A stretch of DNA of 47,204 nucleotides, from NCBI GenBank assembly GCA_900018345.1, contig FCNA01000161.1, forward strand, positions 1 through 47,204, given 5' to 3'. Both the position numbers and the translations under genes were made by a program. This document shows positions 455 through 31,011 of this stretch, piece after piece; within the stretch, counting starts at the first letter, position 1; each line of letters starts with the position of its first letter. The stretch is from Clostridiales bacterium CHKCI006 (GTDB taxonomy: Bacteria; Bacillota_I; Bacilli_A; Erysipelotrichales; Coprobacillaceae). The notes under the pieces are model-generated. The model was not told where the DNA came from. It was given only the letters and a program-made list of their open reading frames with translations, and searched no databases.

Positions 455-3118
455 ATGGAAGAAACGTCTCAAGATAAAGTTGAAAGACAATCAGAACATT
501 TGGTGGCAGGCATTTTTGCGCATGTCGATGCGGGAAAAACGACGCTTGCAGAAAGTTTATTATATTGTGCAGGGGTCTTGAAAAAAAGAGGACGTGTCGA
601 TCATCGGGATGCCTTCTTAGATACGTATGATCTGGAAAGGGAGCGCGGCATTACGATTTTTGCGAAGCAGGCCCGCTTCGAGGCCGGCGGTTTTCAGTTT
701 ACCTTGTTGGATACACCGGGACATGTTGATTTTTCTTTGGAGATGGAACGGACCCTGCAGGTGCTCGATTATGCCATCCTGGTCATCAGCGGATCGCAGG
801 GAATCCAGGGACATACGCGAACCGTATGGTCTTTACTGGCGCATTGTCATATTCCGACAGTCATTTTTGTAAACAAGATGGATCTAGCAGGAACAGACAA
901 GACAAGCTTGCTTGCCCAATTACAGCAACAGCTTTCCACATTCTGCCTGGCTTACGATCTTACGGACGAAAAGACGTGTGAGGAACTATCTTTATTGGAT
1001 GAAACAATGCTGGAAAAGTACTTGACGACAGGGAATCTGGATCAAACGCTGCTGCAGACTTGCTTTGGGAATCGTCAATTTTTCCCTGTTTTCTTTGGCT
1101 CAGCACTCAAGTATGTAGGGATCCAGTCTTTTTTAGAGTCCTTTGTTTCCTTATGTGAACCTAAAACGTATCCTGATACATTGGGCTTGAAGGTCTTTAA
1201 GATCACGCGGGATAAGAAAACACGTCTGACGCTGGCTAAGGTGACAGGCGGTCATCTTTATCCTAAGACAATGCTGGAAGAGATTGATGAAAAAATCGAT
1301 GAGATCCGTCTGTATTCAGGCAGCCAGTACGAGATGGTCCGTCAGGCAGAACCAGGTGAGATCGTGAGTCTGACCGGCTTGCAGACCACCTATGCCGGGC
1401 AGTCACTGGGCTGTGATCAAACGCCTTATCTGGGAATGCTGGAACCCGTCTTAGTCTACCAGCTCGACTTTTGCGATGAGGTGGATGATTATGCCATGTA
1501 TGGTGAACTCAAAACCTTGGAAGAGGAAATTCCGGAACTGGAGATGCAGTGGAATGCTAAGAAACGTAAGATCTATGTGCGGGTGATGGGTGAAGTGCAA
1601 ATGGAAATCTTGAAATCCCTGATTCTAGAAAGGTTAGGGGTATCTGTAGAGATGCATTCAGGCAATATCGTTTATCAGGAAACGATCACGCAAAAGGTTG
1701 AGGGGGTCGGCCATTTTGAGCCTTTACGTCACTATGCCGAGGTTCATCTTTTGTTAGAACCATTGCCGCGTGGATCCGGTGTTCAGATTGCCAGTCAGTT
1801 ATCTTTGGATGAGCTGGAAGCTAACTGGCAGCACTTGATCCTGTCTCATTTAGAGAGCCGTCGGCATCCCGGGGTATTGACAGGAGCGGAGATCACCGAT
1901 CTAAAGATTACCTTAGTTGCCGGTCGTGCACATTTGAAGCATACGGAAGGCGGTGATTTTCGTGAGGCAACCTATCGCGCTTTACGTCAGGGACTCATGA
2001 AGGCTAAATCTATTCTGTTAGAGCCGCTGTACCGTTTTACGATTGAAGTGCCCAATGAACGGGTCGGTCGGGCACTGGCCGATCTGACGCGTTTAGGTGG
2101 GACGTATGATGAACCCACCACCCAGGGCGAAATGACGATCATTCAAGGAACTGGGCCGGTAGCGACATTGAAGGATTATCCTCAGGAAGTCATTAGCTAT
2201 ACCAAGGGACTGGGACGGGTCAGCTTCCAGCTGGAAGGGTATGCGCCATGCCATGATCAGGACAAGATCATGGCACAAAGCGGCTATGATCCGCTAGCTG
2301 ATACAGAGAACCCTTGTGGTTCTGTTTTCTGCAGCCATGGAGCAGGCTTTTATGTGCCTTATGATGAGGTGGAGAACTACATGCATCTTGAAGCCCGCTA
2401 CCAGCCGCCAAGACCACAAAGCCAGATGACTAGAGAGATCCCTGTTTCTTTCGATGCGGAGGATGACCTCAAGCGCATCTTTACACGGACTTATGGAGAG
2501 TACGAGGATGAACGGTATCTCTTTCGCAGCCGCCAGGCCATTCATGAAGGCAAGAGCGAATTGGAGAAACTCAAGGCCGATACCACCAGTCAATCCTATT
2601 TATTGGTAGATGGCTATAATATTATCTTTAGCTGGGATGAATTAAAGGAATTGGCCAAGACCAGTTTGGATGCTGCTCGCTTCCGCCTGATGGATATCCT
2701 CTGTAATTATCAGGGCTTGATTCAGGCCACATTGATCCTGGTCTTTGATGCTTATAAGGTGCAGGGCAATCCAGGGATGGTCGAGAAGTATCATAATATT
2801 TACGTGGTGTATACCCGTGAAGCCGAGACGGCCGATAATTATATTGAAAAGACGGTGCATGAAATCGGACATCATCATCATGTCACGGTCGCTACCTCGG
2901 ATGGGATGGAACAGCTGATCATTTTAGGACAAGGTGGCGTGCGCATCTCAGCACGGGGATTAAAAAAAGAAATCGATTTTGCGATGTCACGCTTAAGACA
3001 GGATCAATTAGCCAATCCGTCCACCGATCAGAAAGGGACGTTATTAGAAAGCGCCAGCGAAGCAGATCAGGAAGTGCTGAAGGCCTGGCGTTTAGAAAAA
3101 AAAGCCCCCGATGATTAA
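455..3118 (+). CDS. TetM-like translational GTPase fused to an NYN (Rae1/YacP-type) RNase domain
   Basis: The 887-aa protein begins as an EF-G-like GTPase of the tetracycline-resistance ribosomal-protection family: G1 AHVDAGKTT (22-30), G2 RGIT, G3 DTPGH, G4 NKMD, followed by EF-G domains. From about residue 714 a second domain begins with SYLLVDGYNII and continues through conserved Asp residues (DAYK, EAETADNYIE, TSDGMEQ). This is the PIN-like NYN fold of YacP/Rae1, a ribosome A-site endoribonuclease in Bacillus subtilis. A ribosome-acting GTPase and a likely ribosome-associated nuclease are thus joined. Real Tet(M) proteins are about 640 aa and lack this tail. The start has a strong AAAGGAGG site. 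Its end overlaps the stop of the opposite-strand gene by 3 nt. Whether it gives tetracycline resistance cannot be told; a rescue or quality-control role is an inference. Confidence 0.88.
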   Translation: MEETSQDKVERQSEHLVAGIFAHVDAGKTTLAESLLYCAGVLKKRGRVDHRDAFLDTYDLERERGITIFAKQARFEAGGFQFTLLDTPGHVDFSLEMERTLQVLDYAILVISGSQGIQGHTRTVWSLLAHCHIPTVIFVNKMDLAGTDKTSLLAQLQQQLSTFCLAYDLTDEKTCEELSLLDETMLEKYLTTGNLDQTLLQTCFGNRQFFPVFFGSALKYVGIQSFLESFVSLCEPKTYPDTLGLKVFKITRDKKTRLTLAKVTGGHLYPKTMLEEIDEKIDEIRLYSGSQYEMVRQAEPGEIVSLTGLQTTYAGQSLGCDQTPYLGMLEPVLVYQLDFCDEVDDYAMYGELKTLEEEIPELEMQWNAKKRKIYVRVMGEVQMEILKSLILERLGVSVEMHSGNIVYQETITQKVEGVGHFEPLRHYAEVHLLLEPLPRGSGVQIASQLSLDELEANWQHLILSHLESRRHPGVLTGAEITDLKITLVAGRAHLKHTEGGDFREATYRALRQGLMKAKSILLEPLYRFTIEVPNERVGRALADLTRLGGTYDEPTTQGEMTIIQGTGPVATLKDYPQEVISYTKGLGRVSFQLEGYAPCHDQDKIMAQSGYDPLADTENPCGSVFCSHGAGFYVPYDEVENYMHLEARYQPPRPQSQMTREIPVSFDAEDDLKRIFTRTYGEYEDERYLFRSRQAIHEGKSELEKLKADTTSQSYLLVDGYNIIFSWDELKELAKTSLDAARFRLMDILCNYQGLIQATLILVFDAYKVQGNPGMVEKYHNIYVVYTREAETADNYIEKTVHEIGHHHHVTVATSDGMEQLIILGQGGVRISARGLKKEIDFAMSRLRQDQLANPSTDQKGTLLESASEADQEVLKAWRLEKKAPDD

Positions 3119-25879: not shown

Positions 25880-28540
25880 ATGGCAAAGAAAGCCGAAGAA
25901 CAAGTTCAAGTTGAAGTAAAAAAAGAATGGACAAATGAAGAGATCGATGCTCATGTCAACGAATTAGTTGAAAATGCACAGAAGGCCCTTGATGCATATC
26001 TCGATTTTGACCAGGACAAAGTTGACTACATCGTTGCAAAATGTTCCGTTGCCGGATTGGATGCACATGGTACATTAGCAGAAGCTGCAGTTAACGAAAC
26101 AAAACGTGGTGTATTTGAAGACAAAGCAGTAAAGAACTTATTTGCCTGCGAATATGTCACTTCAAATTTACGTCATTTAAAAACGGTTGGTGTCATCAAT
26201 GAAGATGAACTCTTTGGTGTAACTGAAATTGCAGAACCAGTAGGTGTTGTCTGCGGTATCGTTCCTACTACAAACCCAACTTCAACCGTTATCTTTAAAT
26301 GTTTAATTGCCATTAAAACAAGAAACCCTATTATTTTCTCATTCCATCCATCTGCTTATGAAAGCTCTAAGATGGCTGCTGAAATCATGCGTGACACTGC
26401 TGTTAAAGCTGGTGCTCCAGAAAACTGCATTCAGTGGTTAGGTGTTAAATCTATGTATGCAACTACAGCGTTAATGAATCATCCAGGTGTTGCAACAATC
26501 TTAGCAACTGGTGGTAACGCAATGGTTAAAGCTGCATACTCTTGTGGTAAACCTGCATTAGGTGTAGGTGCCGGAAACGTTCCTTCTTATGTAGAAAAAA
26601 CATGTAATATTAAAAGAACTGTAAATGATATCGTTTTATCAAAATCATTCGACAATGGTATGATTTGTGCTTCTGAATCTTCAGCCATCATCGATCATGA
26701 AATCTTTGATGAAGTAATCAATGAATTCAAACGTTATCATGTTCATTTCTGTAATGATGAACAAAAAGCTAAATTAGAGAAATTTATGTTTGGTGTGAAT
26801 GCTTACACTGATAAAGTAGGTGAAGCTCACTTAAATCCAGATGTTGTAGGTCGTCCAGCTAGCTGGATCGCTAAACAAGCAGGTTTCGAAGTTCCTGAAG
26901 ATACTCAAATTTTATGTGCATACTGTCAGGAAGTTGGTCCAAACGAACCATTAACTCGTGAAAAATTATCTCCAGTATTAGCTATCTTAAAAGCTGAATC
27001 AACTGAAGATGGAATTAATAAAGCAGCAGCAACTGTTGAATTCAACGGTTTAGGTCACTCAGCTGCAATCCACACAATGAACCATGAAATTTCATTAGAA
27101 TTCGGTCATCGTGTAAAAGCAATCCGTATTATTGAAAACGCACCTTCTACATTAGGTGGTATCGGTGGTGTTTACAATGCCTTCATCCCATCACTCACAC
27201 TTGGCTGTGGATCTTATGGACATAACTCCGTTTCCAACAACGTCAGTGCTGTGAACTTATTGAATATCAAACGTGTCGGAAGGAGAAATAACAACATGCA
27301 ATGGGTTAAACTTCCACCAAAAATCTACTTCGAAAAGAACTCACTTCAGTACTTAAGAGACATGAAGTACATGGAAAAAGCCATGATTGTTACTGACCGC
27401 GGTATGTATAACTTAGGTTATGTTGCGAAAGTAGAAGACGCTATCAGAAGACGTCGTAACCATGTTGATTTACAGTTATTCTTCGATGTTGAATCTGACC
27501 CTAGTGTAGAAACAGTAGAAAAAGGTTTAGAGATCATGACTAGCTTCCAGCCAGATGTTATCATCGCATTAGGTGGTGGATCTGCAATGGATGCTGCAAA
27601 AGTTATGTGGTTATTATACGAACATCCAGATGTAAACTTCAATGATATCAAACAGAAATTCATGGATATCAGAAAACGTGCCTTCAAGTTCCCAGAATTA
27701 GGTAAGAAAGCGCGCCTGATCTGTATCCCAACAACTTCTGGTACTGGTTCAGAAGTAACACCATTCGCTGTAATTACAGACCATGCTACTGCTAAGAAAT
27801 ACCCATTAACTGACTACGCTTTAACACCAACTGTTGCCATCGTTGACCCTACATTCGCTATGTCAATGCCAGCTTCTATCGCTGCTGATACAGGTATCGA
27901 CGTATTAACACATGCCGTTGAAGCATATGTTTCTATCCTTGCTAGTGATTACACTGATGGATGGGCTAAACAGGCAGTTAAACTTGTCTTCGATTACCTC
28001 GAAAGATCTGTTAAGAATGGTAAGAACGATCCTGAAGCTAGAGAAAAGATGCACAATGCAGCTACGATCGCTGGTATGGCTTTCGCCAATGCATTCTTAG
28101 GTATGAACCACTCATTAGCTCATAAGATCGGTGGAGAATTCCACGTACCTCATGGTCGTGCAAACGCCATCTTATTACCAACAGTTATCCGTTACAACGG
28201 AACAGTGCCTACTAAGTTAAATATCTGGCCTAAGATTGAAAACTATAAAGCAGATGTTAAATACATGGAATTAGCTCAGTTAATTGGTTTAAAACCTAAG
28301 ACTCCAGCTGAAGGTGTAGAAATGTTTGCTCAGGCATGTGAAAGATTAATTGCTGCTGTAGGAATTCCTAACAACTTCAAATCTCAGAACATTCCAGAAG
28401 ATAAGTGGATGGCTAAAGTTCATCGTATTGCAATGAATGCTTACGAAGATCAGTGTTCACCTGCTAACCCACGTATGCCAATGGTTAAAGATATGGAAAA
28501 GATCTTGATCGATACATACTACGGTCCTAACGGAAAATAA
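25880..28540 (+). CDS. adhE: Bifunctional acetaldehyde-CoA / alcohol dehydrogenase
   Basis: The 886-aa protein joins an aldehyde dehydrogenase (about 1-450, catalytic Cys263 in GMICASES) to an iron-type alcohol dehydrogenase (about 475-886; [39 protein letters not shown]). It turns acetyl-CoA into ethanol, using two NADH, and forms filaments (spirosomes) in other species. Such a gene implies fermentative growth. Codons are more A/T-ending than in neighbours, as expected of a highly expressed gene. The domain linker contains AGGAG and an in-frame ATG at 27296, a possible internal start. GGAGGTGC precedes the main ATG; a strong terminator follows. Confidence 0.97.
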
Positions 28541-28613: not shown

Positions 28614-28650
28614 ATAAAGAAAGTTGGCTGTAAAGACCAACTTTCTTTAT
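28614..28650. terminator. Long hairpin between adhE and the Rpn locus
   Basis: A perfect 14-bp stem pairs 28614-28627 with 28637-28650 over a 9-nt loop; arms are A/T-rich at the base. It lies 27 nt after the last minus-strand Rpn-locus gene and probably ends that transcript, with possible action in both directions. Confidence 0.6.
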
Positions 28651-28676: not shown

Positions 28677-28937
28677 TTAAATCAGTTCTTCTGAAACATC
28701 TTGAATGTATTTTTCGGCTTCTTCTTTGGTAATATGAAAAATAGATACCATATTAGCTACTATGCTGGAAATATCCTGATTTTGCTTTAAAAAATTCAAG
28801 ATAAAATTTCTGATAATGAAGGCACGCTCTTCTCGTTTTCCCTCTTGTATTCCCTCTTGTATTCCCTCTTGCTTTCCTTCTTGTTTAGCTTCATATCTTT
28901 CAAATTCAATCCATTCACGTCCGATGCTTCTTTGCAT
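28677..28937 (-). CDS. Free-standing Rpn C-terminal module (RpnS-like)
   Basis: The 86-aa protein begins MQRSIGREWIEFERYE after GGAGATGATT (28941-28950), 8 nt from ATG. It is nearly identical to the last 74 residues of the adjacent Rpn protein, but carries 12 more residues, three extra copies of a Q-E-G-K/I unit. The rest predicts two helices (IIRNFILNFLKQ; KEEAEKYIQDVSEEL). An ATG 15 nt upstream is in frame but has no ribosome site. No nuclease domain is present. In E. coli, RpnS proteins made from internal starts block the full-length RpnL nuclease; by likeness of layout this gene could be a separate antitoxin, though it could also be a duplication leftover. Confidence 0.65.
   Translation of the reverse strand: MQRSIGREWIEFERYEAKQEGKQEGIQEGIQEGKREERAFIIRNFILNFLKQNQDISSIVANMVSIFHITKEEAEKYIQDVSEELI
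28836..28883 (-). repeat. Four 12-nt tandem units encoding Q-E-G-(K/I)
   Basis: Four units of the form tattccctcttg (plus strand) follow one another, each adding four residues. The full-length gene has only one unit at this place. The 12-nt length keeps frame, so slippage would change protein length without breaking it. Confidence 0.85.
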
Positions 28938-29012
28938 TTGAATCATCTCCATATATTTGTCATAGTCAAATTGATTAGTCTGTTTCAGGAAGTTTTTTGA
29001 ATATATGATTAT

Positions 29013-29930
29013 TTAGATCAGTTCTTCTGAAACATCTTGAATGTATTTTTCGGCTTCTTCTTTAGTAATATGAAAAGTAGATACCATATTAGCTACTATG
29101 CTGGAAATATCCTGACCTTGCTTTAAAAAGTTCAAAATAAAGTTTCTGATAATGAGGGTACGCTCTTCTCGTTTCCCTTCTTGTTTAGCTTCATATCTTT
29201 CAAATTCAATCCATTCACGTCCAATGCTTCTTTGCATTTGAATCACCTCCATATATTTATCATAGTCAAATTGATAAGTCTGTTCCAGGATTGTCTTCTG
29301 CACTTCTAAAGGTAATTGACCTGAAAAAAGTACATCTAGAAAATGTAAAGCATCTGGACCAGTTACCTCTTCATGATTCCCTAAGTACATCATTAATACC
29401 TCTATTTTGCCATAGTCAACTTTACGATGTTCGTTATGCTTGCATATAAACAGCTCGTTCATCTCAAAACGACTCACACTATTCTCTAGCTGTTTAGGTG
29501 GTGCAAACATGATCCAAATAGAGTAGACTTTTTTTAGTTCACCATAATCCTGCGCCACAAAGTCTACACCTTTCTCACCGACAAAAACTCTGGCTGCATA
29601 GTACAGGGCACGAGTGACCAGTGGATAGCTTTGGTGAAATCGGTTCTGACCCTCGATATTGATCAATAAATAATCCTGTCGATCTGGCAGGTAAACTTTA
29701 TAGAGATTATCGAAAGTCACTTCACCTTTCAAAGGGATCTTATCAGTAGTTTGAATACCTCGAATACGTAAGCTTTTCACAGGACCATCGATGAGTTGAC
29801 TGATGTCCTTTAGGGAACAGTTAGTATATTCAGGAATATAGTCGTGCAGGATCCAGGAGAAAAGCAAACGGTTGGATAATAAAGTATGGCACATCGCATC
29901 ATAGCGATGAATGAGGGTTTCATTGAACAT
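29013..29930 (-). CDS. Rpn family PD-(D/E)XK nuclease / recombination-promoting nuclease
   Basis: From ATG 29930 (AGGTGA upstream) the product has 305 aa. The N-terminal half has the Rpn/PDDEXK_2 layout: RYDAMCHTLLSNRLLFSWIL, DYLLINIEGQ with the active-site Glu93-x-Gln95, and TRALYYAARV. The C-terminal quarter is a charged helical tail (YEAKQEGKREER onward). Rpn proteins cut DNA and some defend against phage. A near-perfect internal ribosome site (29241-29250) stands before in-frame Met232, which would give a 74-aa C-terminal protein. A consensus promoter at 30054-30082 precedes it, and two terminators lie in the leader. A 19-residue N-terminal extension runs into the second terminator and lacks a ribosome site. 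Confidence 0.82.
   Translation of the reverse strand: MFNETLIHRYDAMCHTLLSNRLLFSWILHDYIPEYTNCSLKDISQLIDGPVKSLRIRGIQTTDKIPLKGEVTFDNLYKVYLPDRQDYLLINIEGQNRFHQSYPLVTRALYYAARVFVGEKGVDFVAQDYGELKKVYSIWIMFAPPKQLENSVSRFEMNELFICKHNEHRKVDYGKIEVLMMYLGNHEEVTGPDALHFLDVLFSGQLPLEVQKTILEQTYQFDYDKYMEVIQMQRSIGREWIEFERYEAKQEGKREERTLIIRNFILNFLKQGQDISSIVANMVSTFHITKEEAEKYIQDVSEELI
29241..29250 (-). promoter_or_regulatory. Internal Shine-Dalgarno within the Rpn gene
   Basis: The minus strand reads GGAGGTGATT, a ten-base match to the anti-Shine-Dalgarno of 16S rRNA, with its GGAGG core 8 nt before ATG at 29237 in the same frame. It is stronger than the gene's own start site. The duplicated copy keeps GGAGATGATT at the same place. 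Confidence 0.7.
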
Positions 29931-29950
29931 GTATTCACCTCCATTGTAAC

Positions 29951-29980
29951 AAAAAAGCCATCCCTTGAACATGGACGGCT
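29951..29980 (-). terminator. Second terminator in the Rpn leader
   Basis: AGCCGTCC pairs with GGATGGCT (one G-U) and is followed by six T, 20 nt before the Rpn start codon. Hairpin and T-run resemble 81-106. Confidence 0.65.
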
Positions 29981-29988
29981 GGAACAAG

Positions 29989-30016
29989 AAAAAAGGATTC
30001 CTTGACAGAAATCCTT
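29989..30016 (-). terminator. First terminator in the Rpn leader
   Basis: AAGGATT pairs with AATCCTT over a 10-nt loop, then six T, about 40 nt after the promoter -10. With 29951-29980 it makes two stop signals between promoter and gene. Confidence 0.6.
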
Positions 30017-30053
30017 AAACAACTTTATCAATTGAAACCTAACTCATGATATC

Positions 30054-30082
30054 ATCATAACATTCAAAGAGTCCCATGTCAA
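30054..30082 (-). promoter_or_regulatory. Consensus promoter of the Rpn locus
   Basis: On the minus strand TTGACA (30082-30077), exactly 17 bp, then TATGAT (30059-30054). It is one of the best promoters in the window and points at the Rpn gene. The first RNA product would end near 29989 as a transcript of about 60 nt. Confidence 0.8.
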
Positions 30083-30132: not shown

Positions 30133-31011
30133 TTAACTGTTTGAGGCTTCGTAAATCTTATGAATGGAGCGCTGTAAGGTCTTATCAAATGCTTCATCAC
30201 TCTGCTGGATACTCAATCCTTCGGTAAACGCTCTTGAGAAACTGGCAATAAGCCCTTTATTTTGAGATAATAGATGATTCGCTTCTTTTTGAGAGTATCC
30301 GCCAGAAAGCGCGACGATACGAACGACATGTGAATCTTCCATCAAGTCAAGATAGGTGTCTGTCACGGTAGGAATACTGATCCTAAGTATGATCTTCATA
30401 TCTTCAGGCAAAGTTCTGAATTGTTTAGCAATCTCGTAATGCATAATTTTCTCAGCGCCGGCTTTATCTGAAATATGAATATCGATTTCTGGTTCAAGAA
30501 TAGGGACCAGTCCAGCTTTGGCAATTTGTCTAGCCAACGTAAACTGCTGATCAACGATGGCTTGAATGCCATTGACATCAGCTCCATGGATCACTGAACG
30601 CATCCCGGTGCCAAAGACATGCCTTTCTTTGGCATGAGAAAGTTGCATTTCTAGATCATTGATGGGTGTCATGCGCTGTACCTGATGAGATGGTTCGGTT
30701 AAGCCAACATCTATCTTTGAAAATGAAAGGATACGTTTTCGATGCCAAAGGTAATCGGTCACGTACTCACCTTCGATCTTGCAATCCATCATATTTTGAG
30801 AAAGAATGACTCCTAAAATATAGGTTCCATTGAAGTGGGGATGGGTGAGCATGCGTAAATGCAGGGCATGCATTTTTTGCTCATTAGGATAGCTGTCGCT
30901 TGGAACGCGATCATTTTCTTTAACTTGAGAAGTACTGCTATCGCTTTGATCAAGGGCTGCAATGAATCCTTTACCTGAAATCATACGTTGTAATTGTTCC
31001 TGGTTCATCAT
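30133..31011 (-). CDS. Class I fructose-bisphosphate aldolase homologue with substituted active-site lysines
   Basis: The 292-aa protein aligns along its length with staphylococcal-type class I aldolase: GFIAALDQS, VFGTGMRSVIHGAD, VDQQF, PILEPEIDIH, VALSGGYS and ASFSRAFTEGL. Key positions differ from the family as I know it: DQSGGSTPK reads DQSDSSTSQ, ILFEDTMD reads ILSQNMMD, MRSVIK reads MRSVIH, and the Schiff-base Lys in LKLTLP is Arg in LRISIP. It is therefore probably not a working aldolase. AAAGGAGTG precedes the start. It is divergent from the HAD gene and has no glycolytic neighbours. Confidence 0.75.
   Translation of the reverse strand: MMNQEQLQRMISGKGFIAALDQSDSSTSQVKENDRVPSDSYPNEQKMHALHLRMLTHPHFNGTYILGVILSQNMMDCKIEGEYVTDYLWHRKRILSFSKIDVGLTEPSHQVQRMTPINDLEMQLSHAKERHVFGTGMRSVIHGADVNGIQAIVDQQFTLARQIAKAGLVPILEPEIDIHISDKAGAEKIMHYEIAKQFRTLPEDMKIILRISIPTVTDTYLDLMEDSHVVRIVALSGGYSQKEANHLLSQNKGLIASFSRAFTEGLSIQQSDEAFDKTLQRSIHKIYEASNS

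Follow-up and report, generated by a model that had tools for sequence, protein, structure and literature searches.

The closest described counterparts of the locus analysed here are the Rpn systems of Escherichia coli. Zhong et al. 2023 (PMC10327210) reported that RpnS can have a gene of its own or be encoded inside rpn, and that it blocks the full-length protein, RpnL. According to the same study, second RpnS copies lie downstream of E. coli rpnE (ypaA, whose protein was detected) and of rpnC, and fusions occur too. RpnS synthesis was proven experimentally in E. coli, as well as for a Clostridioides difficile rpn gene expressed in E. coli (PMC10327210). In RpnC, the only protein in which these authors tested the rule of repeat specificity, a single extra repeat deprives RpnC-S of its action on the toxin, and a matching repeat restores neutralisation. 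We could confirm both the rpnE/ypaA and the rpnC/downstream rpnS pairs in E. coli genomes.

Here, we analysed a stretch of 47,204 nt (the window) of Clostridiales bacterium CHKCI006, contig FCNA01000161.1. A previous sequence-only reading of this DNA had proposed an Rpn toxin gene, an antitoxin made from an internal start and an extra, free-standing antitoxin copy. The coordinates, lengths and sequences that it gave were all accurate. It had also held that no case of a duplicated separate antitoxin gene was described, which is contradicted by the downstream copies of rpnC and rpnE in PMC10327210. The separate RpnS arrangement is already known in E. coli and the window is a further example. What is new is a second locus in the same genome with two free RpnS copies, and the occurrence of such copies behind about one sixth of 81 Rpn genes of the order.

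The rpn locus and its family

The features of the locus are collected in Table 1. It is flanked by two genes named from a reading of the sequence, presumably encoding an AdhE-like protein of 886 aa (25880-28540, convergent) and a class I aldolase-like protein of 292 aa (30133-31011). Between the latter gene and rpnL, on the minus strand, a promoter-like site is followed by two hairpins (29956-30082); the number of promoter-like sites in the region is not above that of shuffled sequences. The hairpins may attenuate transcription of the full-length toxin or, alternatively, they may merely be terminators of the upstream gene. The spacer that separates the free rpnS from the convergent adhE-like gene holds a 14-bp perfect inverted repeat with a 9-nt loop (28614-28650), a possible bidirectional terminator. 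A search of Rfam gave no match.

Table 1. Features of the rpn locus, in positions of the window
Feature	Position	Strand	Basis or remark
rpnL-like gene, 305 aa, with PD-(D/E)XK-type residues D74, E93, Q95	29013..29930	(-)	Equivalents of E. coli RpnA D63/E82/Q84
Shine-Dalgarno sequence of rpnL, GGAGGTGA	29935..29942	(-)	dG -15.2 kcal/mol with 16S 3' end
Two terminator-like hairpins with U-runs in the rpnL leader	29956..30016	(-)	Fold z-score only -1.6
Promoter-like site TTGACA-17-TATGAT, extended -10, upstream of rpnL	30054..30082	(-)	11/12 consensus matches
Internal Shine-Dalgarno sequence, GGAGGTGATT	29241..29250	(-)	dG -20.5 kcal/mol, best of 2,245 ATGs
Nested rpnS, 74 aa, internal ATG (Met232, 29237)	29013..29237	(-)	Shine-Dalgarno strength and family-wide tests
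Parent copy of the tandem-duplicated segment	28995..29290	(-)	87% identity over 205 nt and 94% over 124 nt with the downstream copy
Downstream copy of the tandem-duplicated segment	28659..28990	(-)	In register with the parent copy except for the 36-nt insertion
Free-standing rpnS-like gene, 86 aa	28677..28937	(-)	dN/dS 0.19 vs parent; 75 nt downstream
Shine-Dalgarno sequence of the free-standing copy, GGAGATGATT	28941..28950	(-)	dG -13.8 kcal/mol
36-nt insertion, three extra four-residue repeats KQEG IQEG IQEG	28839..28874	(-)	Copy alignment

The 305-aa protein itself matches none of the Rpn models in Pfam, NCBIfam, PHROGs and PADLOC. Its relatives do: among 25 aligned sequences, 10 match TIGR01784 (best 3.6e-11) and six match PF12784 (PDDEXK_2). 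The second RpnL of the same genome, found by phmmer from the 305-aa protein (E 5e-25), matches TIGR01784 at 4.6e-5, below the cut-off. D74, E93 and Q95 are invariant in the 25 sequences; their counterparts in E. coli Rpn are D63, E82 and Q84, in the D ... ExQ arrangement of PD-(D/E)XK-type enzymes. Compared as profiles, the window family and E. coli Rpn aligned only weakly and in the C-terminal half alone, and a single-sequence model of the whole 305-aa protein was of poor quality (pLDDT 40). Hence, we accept membership in the Rpn family (COG5464 / TIGR01784 / PF12784) because relatives match the family models and the active-site residues are conserved, the protein's own test against the models having failed; the earlier assignment to this family stands in this indirect form.

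A search of IMG/VR gave no relatives, and the sole match of the genome-contig scan was distant and limited to the C-terminus. Three unannotated phage records from human faeces contain relatives of this Rpn that are 25-29% identical to it (MT838362.1 2440-3363, MT839139.1 69-803 and MT835472.1 54617-55297), which suggests carriage on phage-like elements.

A conserved internal start

As the sequence-only reading had noticed, the internal Shine-Dalgarno site is better than the gene's own. It pairs with the 16S 3' end at -20.5 kcal/mol, compared with -15.2 for the start of rpnL and -13.8 for that of the free copy at 28937, and Met232 ranks first for Shine-Dalgarno match among the 2,245 ATGs that the window contains on its two strands. 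The 10-mer GGAGGTGATT ends 3 nt 5' of the ATG at 29237 and its GGAGG core ends 8 nt 5' of it.

This property is shared by the family. We compared 81 distinct full-length relatives belonging to the same order; in 77 of them, the strongest internal Shine-Dalgarno site would yield a C-terminal product of 40-110 aa. The mean energy of this site is -13.8, compared with -9.4 for the strongest site that the zone offers once synonymous codons are shuffled and -8.5 for the strongest one elsewhere in the gene. The difference from the shuffled codons is large (Wilcoxon, P about 2e-14). As the 81 genes are related, the P value makes them look more independent than they are. Shuffling of the window gene alone gives a P of only about 0.07. 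A chance origin of the internal site is ruled out by synonymous shuffling at the level of the family, and its strength points to selection on translation initiation, in agreement with the RpnS synthesis proven experimentally in E. coli and for the C. difficile gene (PMC10327210). We infer that Met232 is used for translation in the organism of the window. Thus, what holds of the internal antitoxin proposed earlier is a conserved internal start for an RpnS-like protein.

A free-standing copy of the C-terminal module

The recent duplication noted before is also there: the two segments are 87% identical over 205 nt and 94% identical over 124 nt, in register except for the 36-nt insertion, and the downstream one holds an intact frame (28677-28937). 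Parent and free copy differ in 11 codons, seven synonymously and four not, which together with the insertion rules out an assembly duplicate. The changed repeat length of the copy amounts to exactly three extra four-residue repeats. The ORF caller placed its start at 28952 (91 aa); this ATG has no Shine-Dalgarno sequence (dG -1.3) and we therefore prefer the start at 28937, giving 86 aa. Since no terminator was found between rpnL and the free rpnS, the two genes are probably cotranscribed.

Single-sequence AlphaFold2 predicts helices at residues 26-51, 56-67 and 71-85 of the 86-aa protein (mean pLDDT 73), i.e. a helical protein with a confident C-terminal three-helix part. A three-helix bundle is described for RpnA-S (7TH0). 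The model had no significant match among PDB folds, and the lack of 7TH0 in that list means little.

The 86-aa protein might be a true second antitoxin for its neighbour, raising the dose in spite of its three extra repeats. The helix before the repeats and the tail after them are nearly identical to those of the toxin's own module, the gene has its own Shine-Dalgarno site and is probably cotranscribed, and E. coli YpaA is made as a protein (PMC10327210). Yet, one added repeat in RpnC-S abolished the neutralisation of RpnC and here there are three; for this reason the 86-aa protein should not neutralise its neighbour. A role as spare antitoxin of the adjacent toxin is unlikely by this analogy. 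The repeat numbers described below weigh in the same direction, so that we regard a dose-raising second antitoxin as improbable. The claim of an extra antitoxin copy thus survives as a separate, selectively maintained RpnS-like gene, and becomes doubtful as regards this particular toxin. We also considered the free copy as an antitoxin for the other toxin of the genome, which is unlikely given that the two full-length proteins are only 25% identical.

A second locus and a survey of the order

The second Rpn locus of this genome (L061; contig C106 of G000, 1141-2772, minus strand of the contig) consists of an RpnL followed by two free RpnS copies in tandem, with one and three additional repeats. 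The toxin's module reads KKEG-REEEK, the first copy has an extra RIEG, the second has an extra RIEG LIEG RIEG, and the two copies are separated by a repeated hairpin sequence of the GGCGAAGTAAGATTGCTTCGCC type.

We looked at 81 Rpn genes of the order with at least 400 nt downstream. The sequence-only reading had named Rpn genes followed by C-terminal-only copies as something to look for in relatives, and roughly one sixth of the 81 genes have such a copy on their 3' side (12 to 14, depending on the counting of fragments and duplicated loci). Among the free copies of the order with a resolvable array, none equals its parent in repeat number. Relative to its parent, the window copy is 12 residues longer, the two copies of the second locus are longer by 4 and 12, and copies elsewhere in the order differ by -8, +8, +12, +4, -4, +4 and other values. 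One copy (L139) lacks a recognisable start and its gapless alignment extends only over the part covered, so it was left out of the scoring. Some free copies are frame-broken; some are thus decaying and loss also occurs.

Nine distinct rpnE/ypaA array pairs from E. coli have 0-8 repeats in the toxin and 0-6 in the copy (0 in RpnE and 1 in YpaA of K-12), and none of the pairs is equal. The absence of the parent's repeat number from both the scorable free copies of the order and the nine E. coli pairs is the second point against a spare antitoxin. It is tempting to take such consistent mismatch as evidence of selection for difference. We reject this interpretation, since full-length paralogues are equally mismatched and the E. 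coli pairs fit random pairing: full-length paralogues at least 80% identical in the C-terminal region have equal length in only one of 17 pairs, and if the E. coli arrays were paired at random, 0.9 of the nine pairs would be expected to be equal, with a probability of 0.37 of finding none. The mismatch between parent and copy, as we read these arrays, is a product of rapid repeat turnover. Close RpnL pairs differ in length by multiples of four residues in 17 of 17 cases. At one locus (L078, G128:C16:65700-71300) two full-length Rpn genes stand in direct tandem, with repeat regions that differ by 8 residues.

Selection on the free copies

If repeats drift fast, the free copy might simply be a neutral by-product of tandem duplication, a gene on its way to being lost or fused back. 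Full-length paralogues being mismatched as often as parent and copy fits this, as do the frame-broken copies. Alleles without a second gene are also common in E. coli: among 60 rpnE rows evenly spaced in the ranking, a second feature is annotated in 34 and missing in 26. Yet, the coding sequences show constraint. The window pair has dN 0.05 and dS 0.24 (ratio 0.19), 12 parent/copy pairs pooled have a pN/pS of 0.30, and most intact pairs range from 0.11 to 0.30, although these low ratios could partly reflect divergence gained inside another full-length gene before copying. We estimate that a ratio of roughly 0.6 would be expected if one of the two branches were neutral. The observed values are below it, which argues for purifying selection on the free copies, with constraint on both members of a pair. 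Furthermore, free copies are kept at both Rpn loci of this genome. We thus find a neutral by-product rather doubtful.

Alternatively, the free copies might mainly be recombination cassettes that switch the repeat number of the toxin, and hence its specificity. In E. coli, single-copy rpnE alleles (L148, L149, L151-L154) end in a ypaA-type tail; some of them have a KLEGLQEG array as in a ypaA copy, and another combines an rpnE-type array with the ypaA tail. These are likely traces of rpnE/ypaA recombination, in which the breakpoint can fall on one or the other side of the repeats, and the fusions reported in PMC10327210 go in the same direction. Against this, the comparison of the alleles is unpolarised, and a pure DNA cassette needs neither a strong Shine-Dalgarno site nor a start codon, yet nearly all intact free copies have a start codon and a clear Shine-Dalgarno site. 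A role mainly as cassettes seems unlikely to us.

Discussion

We consider it likely that the locus is a chromosomal RpnL/RpnS module with a diverged free RpnS paralogue that probably no longer pairs with this toxin. The full-length protein would be a PD-(D/E)XK-type nuclease toxin, and the 74-aa protein made from Met232 would bind its identical C-terminal helical module and render it inactive. Tandem duplication of this module gave the free-standing RpnS paralogue, which lies 75 nt downstream, is presumably translated and probably shares the transcript of rpnL. The arrays of parent and copy then came to differ by three four-residue units, leaving the copy most likely unpaired with this toxin. 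The copy could persist as a selectively constrained helical protein, i.e. as an antitoxin of another register, matching an earlier or incoming toxin allele. It could also be a recombination substrate, able to replace the toxin's C-terminus and to donate a new repeat number, an outcome that the single-copy rpnE alleles of E. coli exemplify.

Taken further, free RpnS genes in general might be antitoxins of different register or specificity cassettes, and not spare antitoxins of the adjacent toxin. They would guard against RpnL alleles that are foreign or were present formerly, and recombination could bring them into the toxin and so shift the register in which it pairs. We offer this only tentatively. 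If true, a set of RpnS genes would be kept in tandem behind a toxin, as the +1 and +3 copies of the second locus exemplify. Mismatched copies should fail against the adjacent toxin and neutralise a toxin with the matching repeat number, and the outcome of such a prediction would show what the extra RpnS genes are for.

These observations show the separate RpnS arrangement, known from E. coli, also in a divergent Rpn family of another lineage, in which it is common. As in E. coli RpnE with YpaA and RpnC with RpnC-S (PMC10327210), the window combines an internal start with a separate gene for the C-terminal module directly downstream, and the copies of E. coli rpnE likewise differ from their parent by whole four-residue repeats. 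In contrast to RpnE and RpnC, the window Rpn belongs to a divergent subfamily in another lineage, its copy has three extra repeats, and the second locus of the genome has two free copies in tandem. The C. difficile Rpn of PMC10327210 is another Gram-positive case with an internal ribosome-binding site that gives RpnS, as shown in E. coli, whereas the accessible part of that article describes no free-standing copy for it. Finally, the specificity-subunit variants of EcoR124I/II, a comparison made in PMC10327210, resemble these arrays in that the number of four-residue repeats sets specificity, but they belong to another protein family and their repeats set the spacing of the DNA target and not the pairing of a toxin with its antitoxin.
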